From: Sedimentisphaerales bacterium
GTDB taxonomy: Bacteria > Planctomycetota > Phycisphaerae > Sedimentisphaerales > Anaerobacaceae
Assembly (NCBI GenBank): GCA_016934255.1
Contig: JAFGTG010000047.1
Location: 1-41,038, forward strand
Length of the DNA stretch: 41,038 nucleotides
Direction: 5' to 3'
In this document: positions 3,929 through 9,071 of the stretch, piece after piece
How positions within the stretch are numbered: the stretch's first letter is position 1
Layout: every line of letters begins with the position of its first letter
Notes under the pieces: model-generated
The model's input: only the letters and a program-made list of their open reading frames with translations
Told to the model about the DNA's origin: nothing
Databases searched by the model: none
Program-made: the position numbers and the translations under genes

Positions 3929-5044
3929 ATGTTAAGCGTAAAAGAAATTCTGGCCAATGTGATCGAGTACGGTGCGAGCGACTTACATATCAACGTCGGG
4001 ATGCCGCCGATCCTGCGGAGGAACACCGAGCTGATCGATCTGGATTTTCCCGCGGTGAGTAATGAAGAAGCCAGGGAAATGGTTCTTACGATGATTGGGC
4101 CGGATCGTTTCAAAGAATTCGAAGCCAGAAAAGACCTGGATTTTTCGACAACCCTCGAAGACGGCCATCGATTTCGTGTCAATTCTCACTATCAGAGGGA
4201 CACGATCGGCATCTCGTTCAGGGTGATCCCGAATCACATCCCCGCCCTGGAAGATCTGCACCTGCCCCCGATTGTTAAAGAGCTGGCGGACCTGCCGAGG
4301 GGTTTGGTGCTAGTGACCGGGCACACCGGGTCCGGCAAGAGTACGACGCTGGCCGCGATGATCGAGCTGATTAACACCAAGTATCGCAAGCGTATTATCA
4401 CGATGGAAGATCCCATCGAATACATGATCGAAAACAATAACAGCATGATCGAGCAGCGCGAGATGGGTTCGGACTGCGCCAATTTCGCTTCAGGTCTTAA
4501 ACATGTGCTTCGCCAGGATCCCGACATCATTATGGTCGGCGAAATGCGAGACATCGAGACGACCGGTTCGACGATTACCGGCGCCGAGACCGGCCACCTC
4601 GTTTTCAGCACCTTGCATACGATCAACGCCTCTCAGACGATCGAACGTATTATCGATATCTACCCCGCCACTCAGCAAAATCAGATCCGGACCATGCTGG
4701 CCAATACCCTCCAGGCGGTGATCTCCCAGACACTGTTTCGACGAGTCGATGAGCCGGGCATGGTTCCCTGCGTGGAAATCTTGCTGTGCACCTCGGCCGT
4801 GCGAAACTGTATCCGTGAAAACAGGATTTATGAGATCCCGAACATCATCGAGACGTCGCGCCGGCTGGGGATGCAGAACCTGGATAACAGTATTTCTGAG
4901 ATGTATTTCAAAGGGTATATCGACCGGGACGAAGCCATCATGCGTTCGAGCAATCCCGCAAAGATGGAAAAGCTTCTGGTCCCGGTGGACGAGTTAGACG
5001 CGGCCCAGTCGCGTACCGGGAAAAAGGCTGTCGCGACCCGGTGA
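3929..5044 (+). CDS. pilT: PilT-type pilus retraction ATPase
   Basis: The 371-residue protein aligns by eye with PilT over its whole length. It has the N-terminal 'GASDLHINVGMPP' segment, Walker A GHTGSGKST at residues 131-139, the Asp box 'TMEDPIEY', Walker B with 'DPDIIMVGEMRD', and the His box 'GHLVFSTLHT'. The Walker A second residue is His, where Pro is usual. The C-terminal 'RNCIREN' and 'LGMQNLDNSI' stretches match the PilT retraction signature region (AIRNLIRE in classical PilT). PilT hexamers depolymerise type IV pili. No PilB/GspE extension ATPase is encoded in the window, so this locus alone cannot build a pilus. The gene lies between the platform genes and pilC, as in several Gram-negative operons. 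Confidence 0.92.
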   Translation: MLSVKEILANVIEYGASDLHINVGMPPILRRNTELIDLDFPAVSNEEAREMVLTMIGPDRFKEFEARKDLDFSTTLEDGHRFRVNSHYQRDTIGISFRVIPNHIPALEDLHLPPIVKELADLPRGLVLVTGHTGSGKSTTLAAMIELINTKYRKRIITMEDPIEYMIENNNSMIEQREMGSDCANFASGLKHVLRQDPDIIMVGEMRDIETTGSTITGAETGHLVFSTLHTINASQTIERIIDIYPATQQNQIRTMLANTLQAVISQTLFRRVDEPGMVPCVEILLCTSAVRNCIRENRIYEIPNIIETSRRLGMQNLDNSISEMYFKGYIDRDEAIMRSSNPAKMEKLLVPVDELDAAQSRTGKKAVATR

Positions 5045-5137: not shown

Positions 5138-6352
5138 ATGTTTGAAAAATCTTCGTATAGTAACACGGATTCCACCGCCGTCGCGGAAAACCGGAATCCG
5201 GACCTGGCACCATGGGAGCAGAGCTCAAGCCGAGACGCCATGGCGAGTTCCTCGTCGGGAAAACGACAGGGAAATTCGTTGAAGAAGATGAGCGATTTCC
5301 GGGTCGAATTCGGACCGAGCCGAAAGGACATCCTCAATTTTACCAATCAGCTCACAGTGATGGTCCGGGCGGGAATCAGCCTTCAGGACTCGCTGGAATC
5401 CATCGCCGAACGGCATGATAATCGAAAATTCAAGATGATTATCATGGATTTGAAGAACCGCATAGAGGCCGGGCAGAGTTTTTCACAAGCGCTCGCCGAG
5501 CATACGAACGTATTCAGCGACCTGTATATCAATATGGTCGCCGCGGCCGAGATGAGCGGTTCGCTCAGCGGGATGCTCGAAAAATTATCCGAATATCTCG
5601 ATTCCGAAGCCGAGACACGCTCTCAGATCAGAGGCGCGATGGTCTATCCGATTATCATTGCCGTCATGGCCGTATCCGTGACCATCTTTTTACTTTGTTT
5701 CGTTTTACCGCGGTTCACGGCCATCTTTAAGGGCAAAGAGCATTTGCTCCCGACCCCGACGAAGGCGTTAATGGCGACCAGCGCGTTTCTCCGAGGCTAC
5801 TGGTTCTTCATTCTCCCGGCCATTGGAGCCTTGTTCTTCGCGTTTTGGTATTTCATCAACACCAAAGAAGGACGACGCTGGTGGGACAAGACGAAATTGC
5901 GCTTGCCGCTGATCAAAACGCTCTGCCAAAACCTCTACATCACACGAAGCCTGCACACGATGAGCGTGCTGGTTCGCGCGGGTGTGCCGATATTGAACAC
6001 CATCTCCATTACCGCTCAGATCGCGGGGAATGTCCTTTTTAAAAATATGTGGCTCGGCGTCCATGAAGAGGTCCGTCAGGGCAAGAAGATTGCCTCCAGC
6101 CTGGGCCAGTACACTCTCATGCCGAGCAGTGTCGTGGAAATGATCCGCAGCGGCGAAGATTCCGGTACGATGGGCGACGTCCTGCGCGATGTATCGAACT
6201 ATCATGCCAGAGAGTTGAAAACGGTCATCAAGACCGTCACGTCGATGATCGAGCCGATTATGATTGTCCTGATGGGCGTGTTGGTCGGTTTTATTGCGAT
6301 GAGCATTATTCTACCGATCTTCAAGATGTCCAGTGTTGTGATGGGCAAGTAA
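5138..6352 (+). CDS. pilC: PilC/GspF-family inner-membrane platform protein
   Basis: The 404-residue protein contains two T2SSF domains. The first starts at about residue 65 (FTNQLTVMVRAGISLQDSLE) and the second at about 265 (YITRSLHTMSVLVRAGVPIL); this duplicated 'L..ll.aGv.l..al' pattern defines the family. Membrane segments lie at about 165-190, 220-240 and 370-395. PilC/GspF is the polytopic protein on which the motor ATPases act. The first 55 residues are hydrophilic, Ser-rich and poorly conserved, so an internal ATG (for example 5240 or 5288) could be the true start. The position directly after pilT supports function. Confidence 0.9.
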   Translation: MFEKSSYSNTDSTAVAENRNPDLAPWEQSSSRDAMASSSSGKRQGNSLKKMSDFRVEFGPSRKDILNFTNQLTVMVRAGISLQDSLESIAERHDNRKFKMIIMDLKNRIEAGQSFSQALAEHTNVFSDLYINMVAAAEMSGSLSGMLEKLSEYLDSEAETRSQIRGAMVYPIIIAVMAVSVTIFLLCFVLPRFTAIFKGKEHLLPTPTKALMATSAFLRGYWFFILPAIGALFFAFWYFINTKEGRRWWDKTKLRLPLIKTLCQNLYITRSLHTMSVLVRAGVPILNTISITAQIAGNVLFKNMWLGVHEEVRQGKKIASSLGQYTLMPSSVVEMIRSGEDSGTMGDVLRDVSNYHARELKTVIKTVTSMIEPIMIVLMGVLVGFIAMSIILPIFKMSSVVMGK

Positions 6353-6402
6353 CAATGAAAGGACGATAGACGACGGACGAGGGACGATTAAGAGACACAA
6401 CA

Positions 6403-6918
6403 ATGCAAGCGAACAAACACAACCGTGGTTTTACATTTATTGAGGTTCTCATCGCCACGATATTGATCGGGCTTGCGATCGCGTCTCTCATGGCGGCCAA
6501 TCGGGCCTTTACGACGGCCAACGACGCCGGAACCGATCTATCTACCGCCGAATTCTTAATTGAACAAATCAAAGAGCTTACCGCTTTACTGCCGGTCGTT
6601 GAACCTGGAACTCCGGAGAGTGCAGATGACGTATTCGGTCCAGAATCCGGTGAAACACAGGCGACCTACGACGACTTGAACGATTTCGATGGGACGGCGG
6701 GCAATGGGACGATCTTCTCGCCGCCTATCAATGCCAATAGAAATGTGCTCAATGACTATGCCACTTTTTCTCAGCAGGTGACAGTTGAAAACGTCAGCGC
6801 CACAAATTTTGAGCAGGTTGTTGATCCTCTTAGAAGTTCTTTTGTTCGAGTGACGGTCAGTGTCAGTCAAAACGGCCAAATGGTCACCTCGACAAGCTGG
6901 CTCCGGGCGCGATACTAA
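6403..6918 (+). CDS. Type IV pilin-like minor pseudopilin (GspI/PilV-like)
   Basis: The 171-residue protein carries a class III signal MQANKHNRG|FTFIEV, with Gly9 before the prepilin peptidase cleavage site and Glu at position +5 of the mature protein. The hydrophobic N-terminal helix runs from about 10 to 32. After it a small acidic globular domain is predicted, with little recognisable similarity. The closing 'VRVTVSVSQNGQMVTSTSWLRARY' resembles the C-terminal strands of GspI/PilV-type minor pilins. It would be processed by a PilD-type peptidase that is not in the window. It is followed by a long hairpin (6921-6964) and a second pseudopilin, a pair typical of GspI-GspJ. Confidence 0.8.
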   Translation: MQANKHNRGFTFIEVLIATILIGLAIASLMAANRAFTTANDAGTDLSTAEFLIEQIKELTALLPVVEPGTPESADDVFGPESGETQATYDDLNDFDGTAGNGTIFSPPINANRNVLNDYATFSQQVTVENVSATNFEQVVDPLRSSFVRVTVSVSQNGQMVTSTSWLRARY

Positions 6919-6920
6919 AA

Positions 6921-6964
6921 TTGATTTTCGATTTGCGATTTAGAAATCGACAATCGAAAATCAA
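6921..6964. repeat. 44-base hairpin of the GATTTTCGATTT repeat family
   Basis: Arms of 21 bases at 6921-6941 and 6944-6964 are complementary with only two adjacent mismatches and are joined by a two-base loop (AG). It begins two bases after the stop codon of the first pseudopilin gene and is followed by a short A-run. The arms consist of the same GATTTTCGATTT words that recur at 6997-7029, 7516-7574 and 7621-7646. It may end or stabilise the upstream transcript, but the primary impression is of a mobile or amplified intergenic repeat. Confidence 0.75.
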
Positions 6965-6987
6965 AAAAGAAGGAGAGGTGCTTAGGG

Positions 6988-7506
6988 ATGATAACCAAAT
7001 CGAAAATTGAAAATCGAAAATCGAAAATCAACAGCCGTTTCGGCTTCACCCTGGTTGAACTCTTACTCGCCCTGGCCATATCGGCGATGCTTCTGGCGGC
7101 GGTCGGTACCGCTTTTAATGCCTCGGCGGTAAACTACCAAGAAAACGAGAAAATCTTCAAAACGATCAATAACGCCCGCCAGGCCCTGTTCAGAATGACC
7201 ACCCAGCTTCGCACAGCCGACGCCGTCGATCCGAACGCTCCGAGCAACGAATGTACGCTGATCACACCCGCCAGCGAGAACATCACGTATCGATACAATA
7301 GCGCGGATAATAAGCTTTATTTGGACACCAACAGCAATTCATACGTCCTTTGTGAGAACGTAACGGGGATGACGTGCACGAAAAATACGGTGCTTGAAGA
7401 TTCGCTGTTAAAAGTCAAGAGCGTACAGATTTCGCTGACCGTTGCATGTGACAACAGGGAGCGAACGATTGCGGCCGCGGCGGTCGTGAGACGAAATTTA
7501 AACTGA
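6988..7506 (+). CDS. Type IV pilin-like minor pseudopilin (GspJ/PilW-like)
   Basis: The 172-residue protein has a prepilin leader of 19 residues ending in G|FTLVELLLALAIS; cleavage after Gly19 leaves Phe+1 and Glu+5. The hydrophobic helix covers about 20-40. The body contains 'NNARQALFRMTTQLRTADAV' (about 53-72), the pattern of GspJ/PilW proteins. A Shine-Dalgarno AGGAGAGG (6971-6978) nine bases before ATG 6988 supports this start. That makes residues about 4-14 of the leader (KSKIENRKSKI) a translation of the AT-rich intergenic repeat at 6997-7029. A later start is unlikely because no other ATG precedes the cleavage site. The gene closes the pilus operon. Confidence 0.8.
   Translation: MITKSKIENRKSKINSRFGFTLVELLLALAISAMLLAAVGTAFNASAVNYQENEKIFKTINNARQALFRMTTQLRTADAVDPNAPSNECTLITPASENITYRYNSADNKLYLDTNSNSYVLCENVTGMTCTKNTVLEDSLLKVKSVQISLTVACDNRERTIAAAAVVRRNLN
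6997..7029. repeat. Tandem AAAATCG/AAAATTG repeat inside the pseudopilin leader
   Basis: Four imperfect copies of a nine-base word (TCGAAAATC or TTGAAAATC) lie head to tail. The array starts nine bases after the ATG at 6988 and is read through in frame. The same word family forms the hairpins at 6921-6964 and 7516-7574 and a short run at 7621-7646. Confidence 0.8.
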
Positions 7507-7515
7507 CCATTATGA

Positions 7516-7574
7516 ATTTTCGATTTCCAATCTGTGATTTTCAATTTGGAAATTGACAATTGGAAATCGAAAAT
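7516..7574. repeat. 59-base nested hairpin of the same repeat family
   Basis: Sixteen-base arms at 7516-7531 and 7559-7574 are perfectly complementary (ATTTTCGATTTCCAAT and its reverse complement). Inside the loop a second palindrome, CAATTT-GG-AAATTG, occupies 7542-7555. It lies ten bases after the last pseudopilin stop codon and may terminate or protect the pilus transcript. No T-tract follows directly, so a classical intrinsic terminator is not shown. Related unfolded copies lie at 7621-7646, next to the tRNA. Confidence 0.75.
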
Positions 7575-7657
7575 CTGCAATAAATTCCTTGCTTTTTCAC
7601 TTTTCCCCGTCATAATACCCATCGTAAATTGAAAATTGAAAATCGACATTTGCATTG

Positions 7658-7731
7658 GGGCGATTAGCTCAGTCGGCTAGAGCGCCTGCTCGACACGCAG
7701 GAGGTCAGTGGTTCAAGTCCACTATCGCCCA
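7658..7731 (+). tRNA. tRNA-Val (anticodon GAC)
   Basis: The 74 bases fold into a full cloverleaf. The acceptor stem pairs GGGCGAT (7658-7664) with ATCGCCC (7724-7730). The D stem is GCTC/GAGC, and the anticodon stem CCTGC (7685-7689) pairs with GCAGG (7697-7701). The T stem AGTGG/CCACT holds the loop TTCAAGT. The discriminator is A7731 and CCA is not encoded. The anticodon at 7692-7694 is GAC, giving valine. Position 33, before the anticodon, reads C (7691) where almost all tRNAs have U, and position 32 is T, so the usual CT looks swapped to TC. It lies between the pilus operon and the polysaccharide locus. Confidence 0.93.
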
Positions 7732-7985
7732 TTACCATAAACTCCTGCATACACGGATATTACAACACCTTCCATCTACATCCCCCCCCAGTCTTTTCCC
7801 CCTTCCGATAACACGGAAATCCTCGATTTTTCACTAGCCTAATACCCTCCTATTCGCCTAAAAAGATGTCAAGGAAAACGCGTAGTGACTACCATTTTCA
7901 TAGACGTCAAAAGTCTATACATTGCCATAGAAATTGATTGTTCGTTTGAAAACGTAAGAGATTTTAAAACTAAGGAGAGACGCAA
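7732..7985. promoter_or_regulatory. Leader region of the polysaccharide locus with inverted repeat
   Basis: About 250 bases separate the tRNA from the first polysaccharide-locus gene. A perfect inverted repeat, ATAGAC (7900-7905) and GTCTAT (7913-7918) with a seven-base spacer, is a possible operator. I do not see a clear -35/-10 pair or a -24/-12 sigma-54 site. A C-run (about 7782-7790) and pyrimidine-rich stretch follow the tRNA. The strong Shine-Dalgarno AAGGAGA before ATG 7986 ends the region. The main promoter of the locus is likely here, inferred from position only. Confidence 0.4.
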
Positions 7986-9071
7986 ATGAATACAAAAAAG
8001 AAATGGTGCATTGTGTGTGTCGTTATGTCCTTTTCAGTCGTTGTGTCATCCCAAACGTCCTTATCGGCTTCACCGATTGAGATGGATCAGGCGATAATCA
8101 ATATTGCCGATCGACTCGAAACGGCACAAATGAAGAATGGGGAAAACACAGGAGCCTGGCTTGATAATATTGAATTCACCGGCTCCATTACGGTCGGGAT
8201 GGTCGATGCCTACCACCAGATCGGCGAAACCTCTTATTGGTCTTGTGCGGAATTAGCGGGACAGTATATCCTTTCAACGTCTGACGGCCATTTGTATTCC
8301 GATGAAGCCCTGGCCTTAACACGCTTAAGCGATTCCATGGACGACCCGCTCGACAATCCCTGGAGAACGGAGGTGAGCCGGTTTTACGCCGACATCAAGA
8401 ACAGTTCCATCGGTACACAAGCCTATATTGATTTTTATGACGGATTGGAACCCTCCGCGGTCGTGCTTTGCCTGGCAGAACACACTGTCGCGGCATTCAC
8501 TGTGGGGGCCGAGGATATTGAAATCTGGCGACAAGGTTTGATCGACACACTCTCTCAAATCAACGGCAATTGTTCTTTTCCCGTTTTGGCATTAGGTTCC
8601 GCAACGTGGGCGTTGGCCCAAACGGGCCCGCTGGACGAAACTCTCATTGATCCATTCGCAGACAAGACCTCTTACTGGAACACGAAAAAACTGGAAGATT
8701 TGCCCGATCTTCTCTTGAGTCATCAGGTGCCGGCCGACCAAGCCATGGCGGGCAGTTTCTATTGGCGCCTCGACCATAGCGACGGTGGATTAGGAGTCGC
8801 CGTCAGCGGCTATACCGAAGATACGATCTATGCCACACTGGGTCTTATCGCCGCGTATCAAACGGCTTTTGGTCCGAGAGCGGATGTGGAATCGGCCCTT
8901 AGTGCAGCCCGTACGGCATTGCTGGATGGCATATGCCCTCAAGGCTGGGTTCGTGAACACCTTTCTCAAGAGGGTAACGCTTGTTGTGTTTACGCGGGGG
9001 AAATGCTTCAGGTTCTCTGTGAACTGGGATCTCTGTCGGAGAACGAGTTCAATGTTGCCTCGTCGAGATGA
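7986..9071 (+). CDS. Secreted protein with probable alpha/alpha-toroid fold
   Basis: The 361-residue protein has a Sec signal peptide (about 1-29: KKK, then a hydrophobic core, with likely cleavage near SLSA-SP). The mature part is built of helical repeats with small and aromatic residues at regular spacing (ITVGMVDAYHQIGETSYW, the AELAGQYIL region, and the late DTIYATLGLIAAYQTAFG). This pattern is seen in alpha/alpha-toroid proteins such as polysaccharide lyases, cyclases and unsaturated glucuronyl hydrolases. I cannot assign a catalytic motif. As the first gene of a polysaccharide export locus it may modify or bind the polymer outside the cytoplasm. It has no C-terminal PEP-CTERM-type sorting tail. 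The AAGGAGA site about eight bases upstream fixes the start. Confidence 0.6.
   Translation: MNTKKKWCIVCVVMSFSVVVSSQTSLSASPIEMDQAIINIADRLETAQMKNGENTGAWLDNIEFTGSITVGMVDAYHQIGETSYWSCAELAGQYILSTSDGHLYSDEALALTRLSDSMDDPLDNPWRTEVSRFYADIKNSSIGTQAYIDFYDGLEPSAVVLCLAEHTVAAFTVGAEDIEIWRQGLIDTLSQINGNCSFPVLALGSATWALAQTGPLDETLIDPFADKTSYWNTKKLEDLPDLLLSHQVPADQAMAGSFYWRLDHSDGGLGVAVSGYTEDTIYATLGLIAAYQTAFGPRADVESALSAARTALLDGICPQGWVREHLSQEGNACCVYAGEMLQVLCELGSLSENEFNVASSR

Follow-up and report, generated by a model that had tools for sequence, protein, structure and literature searches.

How can a short tandem repeat come to be read as the leader of a pseudopilin? The question is raised by one gene in the window, as we call the whole 41,038-nucleotide stretch analysed, which is contig C68 of a draft genome (G000; 6.3 Mb, 634 contigs, 85.8% complete). 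The original prediction held that one AT-rich, hairpin-forming repeat family had invaded the start of this gene and was tolerated there because the leader is removed and must be basic. Profile matches identify the region as a type IV pilus/type II secretion operon, with the following features:

3929–5044, T2SSE ATPase (Pfam match)
5138–6352, T2SSF protein (Pfam match)
6361–6387, plus strand, heptamer array of the GGACGAC type (GACGA core; TRF period 7, 3.9 copies)
6403–6918, plus strand, pseudopilin gene 1, N-terminus MQANKHNR followed by GFTFIEVL (PF07963, E 9.4e-6)
6921–6964, no strand assigned, AATCG-class palindrome in the gap separating pseudopilins 1 and 2 (antisense units first, sense units second)
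6971–6978, plus strand, Shine–Dalgarno-like AGGAGAGG, 9 nt before ATG 6988 (direct reading)
6988–7506, plus strand, pseudopilin gene 2, 172 aa, leader MITKSKIENRKSKINSRF preceding GFTLVELL (PF07963, ORF)
6997–7029, plus strand, sense AATCGAA heptamer array (TRF), read in frame as KSKIENRKSKI inside the leader
7516–7574, no strand assigned, palindromic AATCG/AATTG-class array directly past the pseudopilin 2 stop
7626–7646, plus strand, short AAATTGA run between the palindrome 7516–7574 and the tRNA
7658–7731, plus strand, tRNA-Val (GAC) (tRNA call; Rfam)

The predicted repeat copies were all located, at 6921–6964, 6997–7029, 7516–7574 and 7621–7646, and the tandem array does lie in frame within the leader, behind a start codon preceded by the Shine–Dalgarno-like site. 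TRF describes this array as 4.7 copies of AAATCGA at period 7; the run beside the tRNA holds 2.6 copies of AAATTGA at the same period (7626–7643), with GAAAATCGA at 7638–7646. The palindromes on the two sides of pseudopilin 2 have arms of 21 nt with 90% complementarity and a 2-nt spacer (6921–6941/6944–6964) and arms of 29 nt with 79% complementarity (7516–7544/7546–7574), and their calculated RNA folds reach −18.8 kcal/mol (6917–6968, z −5.7) and −25.7 kcal/mol (7512–7578, z −6.7). The suggestion that these hairpins terminate transcription found no backing: a search of 6300–8000 gave no terminator-like call on either palindrome, its sole terminator-like site being 7045–7033 on the minus strand (2.2 expected), and an Rfam scan of the same interval returned nothing besides the tRNA.

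The array at 6361–6387, which the original prediction overlooked, sits in the junction between T2SSF and pseudopilin 1, upstream of ATG 6403, and is untranslated if that ATG is the right start.

Prepilin leaders are removed by prepilin peptidase, and prepilins need the positive charge that the leader carries. The gene at 6988–7506 matches PF07963 (N_methyl) at residues 16–39 (E 8.5e-7), and its N-terminus, MITKSKIENRKSKINSRF followed by GFTLVELLLALAIS, has the basic leader, Gly(−1), F-T-L-x-E and hydrophobic stretch of a PF07963 prepilin; judged by this motif, the leader of pseudopilin 2 would be cleaved by prepilin peptidase. There is no in-frame ATG, GTG or TTG between ATG 6988 and the Gly codon, so that a canonical-start prepilin N-terminus requires translation of the array 6997–7029.

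The repeat is strongly over-represented. With up to one mismatch, AAATCGAAAATC has 13 copies in the window where 0.92 would be expected, a count reached by none of 100 shuffles, and the exact word has 24 copies in the host genome against 0 for the reversed word, some of the 24 being lone words within genes and outside any array. The main repeat unit is a heptamer in which two variable bases accompany the core AATCG. Across the host genome, the pattern AATCGNNAATCGNNAATC (AATCGNN class, up to one mismatch) was found at 88 places, which form 52 clusters by hand grouping, compared with 2 for the reversed pattern. Of the 36 genomes from the family, the host included, 20 have exact AATCGNNAATCGNNAATCG, as do 2 of 24 other genomes of the order; the reversed control of this word matches in 4 of these 60 (G004, G018, G027, G040).

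Period 7 dominates the tandem arrays as a whole. We counted 70 period-7 arrays in 1.176 Mb of the host genome (the window plus 100 stretches, 34 of them selected for AATCG arrays), against 0–11 at each of the periods 4–6, 8–13 and 15, with 37 at the harmonic 14; 3-mer shuffles of the host-genome stretches gave none at period 7. The fairer sample, 66 stretches of the same genome selected for N_methyl matches, contained 24 period-7 arrays versus no more than 7 at any other period except the harmonic 14 (9 arrays), and 18 stretches of the relative G022 contained 46 versus at most 7 (harmonic, 21). Units besides AATCGNN include TCAATNN, GACGANN, TTCTGTN, AAATCTC, TACGANA and AATTCTN, and in place of the single AT-rich family of the original prediction we find arrays of many different units that share a period of 7.

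According to our own ORF calling, 47 of the 70 arrays are intergenic, 2 lie at gene edges and 21 are intragenic, although some of the last group probably precede the true start (L217, an AIR carboxylase; L224; L243). Among 60 two-unit AATCG clusters there are four neighbour pairs within 80 nt, three arranged antisense-then-sense and one sense-sense.

An octamer class of the TTCCANNN type adjoins heptamers on the minus strand of L162 at about 980–850, where it is palindromic, and in L017 near 1400. Near 1515 in L016, GTCCTGAGCGAAGCCGAGGG, which we take to be a dispersed repeat of many uncultured bacteria, lies directly 3' of a heptamer palindrome. Arrays are also present near 69,300 on contig C119 of the same-family relative G022.

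Ordinary replication slippage of chance 7-mers, retained in leaders of loose sequence whose peptide is not under selection, would fit the short tandem form of the repeats and the weak constraint on leaders. We regard it as very improbable, since period 7 prevails even in the stretches unselected for arrays (the 24 of G000 and the 46 of G022), one 5-base core recurs in several phyla, and the leader arrays are biased in orientation, as described below. Slippage alone does not account for the prevalence of 7.

Selfish palindromes of the REP or MITE kind, moved by a transposase and inserted into ORFs in the manner of the Rickettsia palindromic elements, are a further candidate, in keeping with arrays that are dispersed, partly palindromic and in frame within ORFs. 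In REP/RAYT systems, a fixed palindrome is linked to a Y1 transposase. The host genome does have five Y1_Tnp (PF01797) matches, two of them with open frames of 226–228 aa, but their contigs (C390, C533, C7, C480 and C100) are outside the list of AATCG-array contigs, and comparison of the contig lists tied no fixed palindrome to the transposase. The arrays differ from one another in unit sequence, in copy number and in their ends, no fixed mobile element was found among those of the host genome, and we consider transposition of this kind quite improbable.

To see how far the arrangement extends, we scanned 84,980 species genomes for AATCGNNAATCGNNAATC followed, after 0–30 bases, by GGNTTYACNYT, and obtained 51 matches in 49 loci, 37 of which are prepilins by motif and hydrophobic stretch and 14 are not. 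The 37 come from 30 genomes of at least six phyla according to record titles: Verrucomicrobiota and allies (Opitutaceae, Limisphaerales, Kiritimatiellae, Lentisphaerota, Pontiellaceae), Planctomycetota, Patescibacteria, Nitrospinota, Acidobacteria and Thermodesulfobacteriota/Desulfobacteraceae, with two genomes unplaced (BMS3Bbin08 and DBS2-1.bin101). All except BMS3Bbin08 are titled as MAGs. Examples of the leaders are IVNRKSPIVNPP, IENRKSKIEN and IVNRQSSIVNSHR. The gap between array and Gly codon is 0–22 nt, most commonly 6 nt.

Six contigs carry two or three array-leader sites about 0.5–1.2 kb apart (three in G467:C25; two each in G442:C429, G466:C246, G452:C29, G446:C83 and G456:C364). Inspected by eye, the G467 case (L162) shows four pseudopilin-like genes behind a gspF-like gene; in three of the four an AATCG-class array precedes the motif, and an octamer palindrome occupies the junction ahead of the third.

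A canonical start precedes the array in 33 of the 37 prepilins, at a long distance in some, and in none of the 37 does one lie between the array and the Gly codon. The remaining four have no in-frame canonical start; three are from Patescibacteria and one is at a contig edge. The array might be untranslated if the true starts lay past it, and starts are known here from sequence alone, with one relative (G023) having an ATG at the array end. Such an artefact is scarcely credible given that neither the window nor any of the 37 cases has an ATG, GTG or TTG between array and Gly codon, and that the Shine–Dalgarno-like site stands upstream of ATG 6988.

The three patescibacterial MAG loci (L121, L129 and L139) have array-leader prepilin ORFs of 618, 1091 and 629 aa counted from the motif, without an in-frame ATG, GTG or TTG before the Gly codon, for which a non-canonical start is one candidate reason; the leader LNLKSLIANLKSKIKG is common to two genes of one genome among them.

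The orientation of the arrays at prepilin motifs is one-sided. In the 30 genomes, two sense units precede GFTLx[E/D] at 44 sites in 29 genomes by hand count, and two antisense units at none. Restricting the count to sites outside the 37 leaves 9 sense versus 0 antisense (P = 0.004); the 9 were likewise counted by hand, and all but one, in L162, are identified as prepilins from their DNA pattern alone. Among 392 genomes of the phylum there are 5 sense sites in 3 genomes and 0 antisense, by pattern only: the window's own, three in G201 (one of them that of L147) and one in G041. The unrelated unit ATACGAN, a pattern selected after three of its sites were known, gave 6 sense sites in 5 of 60 relatives and no antisense site in any of the 60.

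Stop codons are not the cause of this bias, because the antisense frames are about as open: in 18 non-prepilin AATCG arrays of G000 and G022, stops are absent from 49 of 54 sense frames and from 48 of 54 antisense ones, a control from two genomes set beside orientation counts from other genomes. The encoded peptides differ, in that sense NRKSKIE has a net charge of +2 and a mean hydropathy of −2.2, whereas antisense FDFRFSI has 0 and +0.6. The sense bias fits the requirement for a positively charged prepilin leader, and the proposal that the repeat is tolerated because the leader must be basic gains support from it. Two exceptions were seen: the leader of L176 begins with an antisense half, which the sense half follows, and in the 351-aa L198 protein an antisense array lies close to the N-terminus.

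Recurrence at prepilin leaders is clear, and the excess over other gene starts is modest. With different windows used for prepilin leaders and for other starts, arrays were present in 2 of 97 prepilin leaders versus 0 of 495 other starts in G000 (P 0.027), in 2 of 34 versus 4 of 208 in G022 (P 0.20), and in 4 of 131 versus 4 of 703 in the two combined (P = 0.024). The G000 sample comprises the 66 stretches on contigs among the N_methyl matches listed, with the window and contigs C227, C304, C24, C568, C27, C274, C244 and C194 set aside. The G022 sample comprises 18 of 20 stretches; C40 and C13, which had been selected otherwise, were counted apart (2/2 versus 1/21), and the G022 count leaves out the prepilin at G022:C119 that is visible in L165. 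Ordinary leaders prevail: of 100 prepilin-like genes called in the host genome, just 3 have an array leader.

A Poisson estimate, which puts all clusters in the non-coding 18% of the host genome, gives 0.21 sense clusters expected within 75 nt upstream of the 126 N_methyl sites; two were observed, on C68 and C355 (P = 0.02), in a cluster list from which the leader array of C116 is missing.

Two other comparisons were not used. A first host-genome test (3/100 versus 6/758) was set aside, as 34 of its 100 stretches were array-selected. The ratio of 37 real prepilins to 14 chance GFTL strings was rejected as proof of enrichment, since a GFTL string as a rule belongs to a genuine prepilin in any case (all G000 stretches, 73 of 101; G022, 18 of 28; L119–L167 flanks, 21 of 29), although only 2 of 12 do so in the array-selected G000 stretches.

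The same leader was compared in relatives. The orthologous protein was found in 49 of 60 genomes searched, and 30 loci were compared, the host's included; the L073 leader, missed by the motif search, was judged by eye. Period-7 arrays occur in the upstream ORF of the host gene and of four other orthologues: an ATACGAA array read as MRNTKYEIRNT in G022, ATACGAR arrays in G004 and G008, and in G023 a TCATCCA array with an ATG at its end, three codons before Gly. This ATG may be the G023 start, in which case the array is untranslated. Two-unit ATACGA copies are present in G013 and, beside the orthologue, in G015 (G015:C429), remnant-like peptides (NTRY, NTRH, TRC) in G034, G025 and G011, and no array was detected at the remaining orthologue loci among the 30.

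Different heptamers thus stand at one orthologous leader, and a single invasion is improbable because the leader of relatives carries ATACGAR and perhaps, in one genus, TCATCCA. That part of the capture proposal found no support in the form given, while the other part, a genome-wide repeat lying in the leader frame, stands. Among the 29 orthologues from relatives, we did not see the same leader in a genome lacking the repeat elsewhere.

In a FastTree phylogeny of T2SSF and the pseudopilin, the nearest relative is G016 (support 0.996), deeper nodes being weakly supported. Its leader is the short MQKTTHET, free of the repeat, so the AATCG array of the window lineage was probably gained and is a derived state, although the G016 genome itself has AATCG arrays at 8 places. 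ATACGAR may have arisen earlier and been passed down within part of the family, perhaps as a single ancestral state. The preceding gene behaves in parallel: pseudopilin 1 has a TGTCAAT array leader in G004 (L065) and a CATCGAG array leader in G022 (L293), and in the window a GACGA-core array precedes its start.

Arrays are also read within other proteins. The KdtA transferase of the host genome has one in frame just past its N-terminal domain. In alignment with 4bfc, five query residues are unmatched and two are missing; since the homologue reads LENRQ there and two residues are missing, the alignment is no clean proof of insertion. Heptamer arrays also occupy the same linker, before W(P/L)(T/M)YR(H/C)D, in four PQQ-propeller-like proteins, of which L198 alone was Pfam-scanned:

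L198:13478–17365, PQQ-propeller-like protein
L238:2876–6085, PQQ-propeller-like protein
L252:2–1471, PQQ-propeller-like protein
L221:558–3641, PQQ-propeller-like protein

The linker unit is AAATCTC in three of them and GACGANN in one, and L238 has a second array, as if the linker were a hot spot or held a swapped insert. A GspK-like protein (L199; assigned by eye, no Pfam match) also has an array in frame. In the Deg-like protease L218, the N-terminal region (L218:9619–9850) reads AATCG-type units and then a TTCTGTC array that yields the hydrophobic stretch YVVFLLSSVFCLLSSA; the LTD protein L210 likewise has an array in its signal-peptide region. By eye, the array-containing N-termini of both are probably signal peptides.

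Taken together, these observations make it probable, in our judgement, that heptamer arrays accumulate at gene junctions and in ORFs and that prepilin leaders tolerate them, being cleaved and needing only to be basic. The genome would accumulate short arrays of about 3–6 units, of many 7-mers and in part palindromic, at junctions and sometimes in ORFs. As 7 is not divisible by 3, every reading frame of such an array cycles through one and the same 7-residue peptide, and AATCG arrays, being mostly stop-free, would be readable. For a prepilin leader, a start codon, basic residues and Gly(−1) would suffice, and an array lying between the preceding stop and the Gly codon may turn coding either by insertion behind a start or through an upstream start. 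Orientations giving a basic, hydrophilic peptide (AATCGAA, NRKSKIE; ATACGAA, IRNTKYE) would then persist beside the motif, the reverse strand encoding the aromatic, hydrophobic FDFRFSI. Translation and cleavage of the arrays, tolerance of them rather than benefit, and a process that makes them are what the sequences suggest.

Alternatively, the arrays could be regulatory sites, targets of RNA- or DNA-binding proteins near starts and junctions, with leader use as a by-product. This would agree with the 47 of 70 arrays called intergenic, with the strongly folding palindromes on both sides of pseudopilin 2, with published proposals for Beggiatoaceae and Geobacter heptamers, and with the resemblance of one Geobacter class, MTYCTGA, to the TTCTGTN arrays. 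We nevertheless think it unlikely, as the heptamers are many and unrelated, with two or more at one orthologous leader, the array orientation tracks the encoded peptide, and arrays also lie in protein linkers distant from starts.

Beyond the tolerance of arrays in prepilin leaders, heptamer arrays could serve several bacterial phyla as a general source of N-terminal targeting peptides, sense AATCG and ATACG units giving basic prepilin leaders and TTCTGTC giving the hydrophobic core of Sec-type signals, with peptide chemistry choosing the orientation and an array-making process behind it that favours 7-nt units far above others. We offer this wider view tentatively and, on balance, would not expect it to hold.

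The locus provides a concrete, recurring case of simple repeats turning into protein segments, and it comes with a natural control: the two orientations are similarly open and of opposite chemistry, and the suitable one alone is found beside the prepilin motif. It suggests leader and signal peptides as an entry point for new coding sequence and reopens the question of why a 7-nt unit is so frequent among the dispersed repeats of bacteria. In practice, some MAG prepilin annotations have repeat-derived N-termini, by which both homology searches and the calling of starts can be misled.

Among known dispersed tandem heptamers are the STRR heptanucleotide repeats of cyanobacteria. A literature search, with subscription journals mostly outside its reach, turned up no account of prepilin leaders formed by heptamer arrays, and for the repeat words and NRKSKIEN it returned nothing related by title. 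Rickettsia palindromic elements are palindromic repeats in frame within coding genes (review PMC10969869); they measure about 150 bp, compared with about 25–60 bp and no fixed element for the arrays of the host genome.

The heptanucleotide elements of Geobacter metallireducens, predicted to be regulator-binding sites or RNA elements (PMC2700814), are closer. Like our arrays they are tandem, lie within and between genes and in some classes are paired on opposite strands, and their MTYCTGA class resembles the TTCTGTN arrays; the available part of that paper describes no leader use.

TAACTGA heptamers, for which a regulatory role has been proposed, occur in marine Beggiatoaceae, Cyanobacteria and Bacteroidetes (MacGregor 2015, PMC4679880). 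They share with the present arrays the form of short tandem heptamers, mostly intergenic near starts and spread over distant phyla, and some are in ORFs at the protein periphery, where one orientation reads as a repeating peptide (PMC4679880). The TAACTGA unit is absent among the 70 host-genome period-7 arrays. TAACTGA repeats have a single invariant 7-mer, whose forward orientation contains stops, and prepilin leaders are unmentioned in the available part of the paper (PMC4679880), whereas the host genome has many 7-mers, the main class combining a 5-base core with two variable bases and being mostly open in both orientations.
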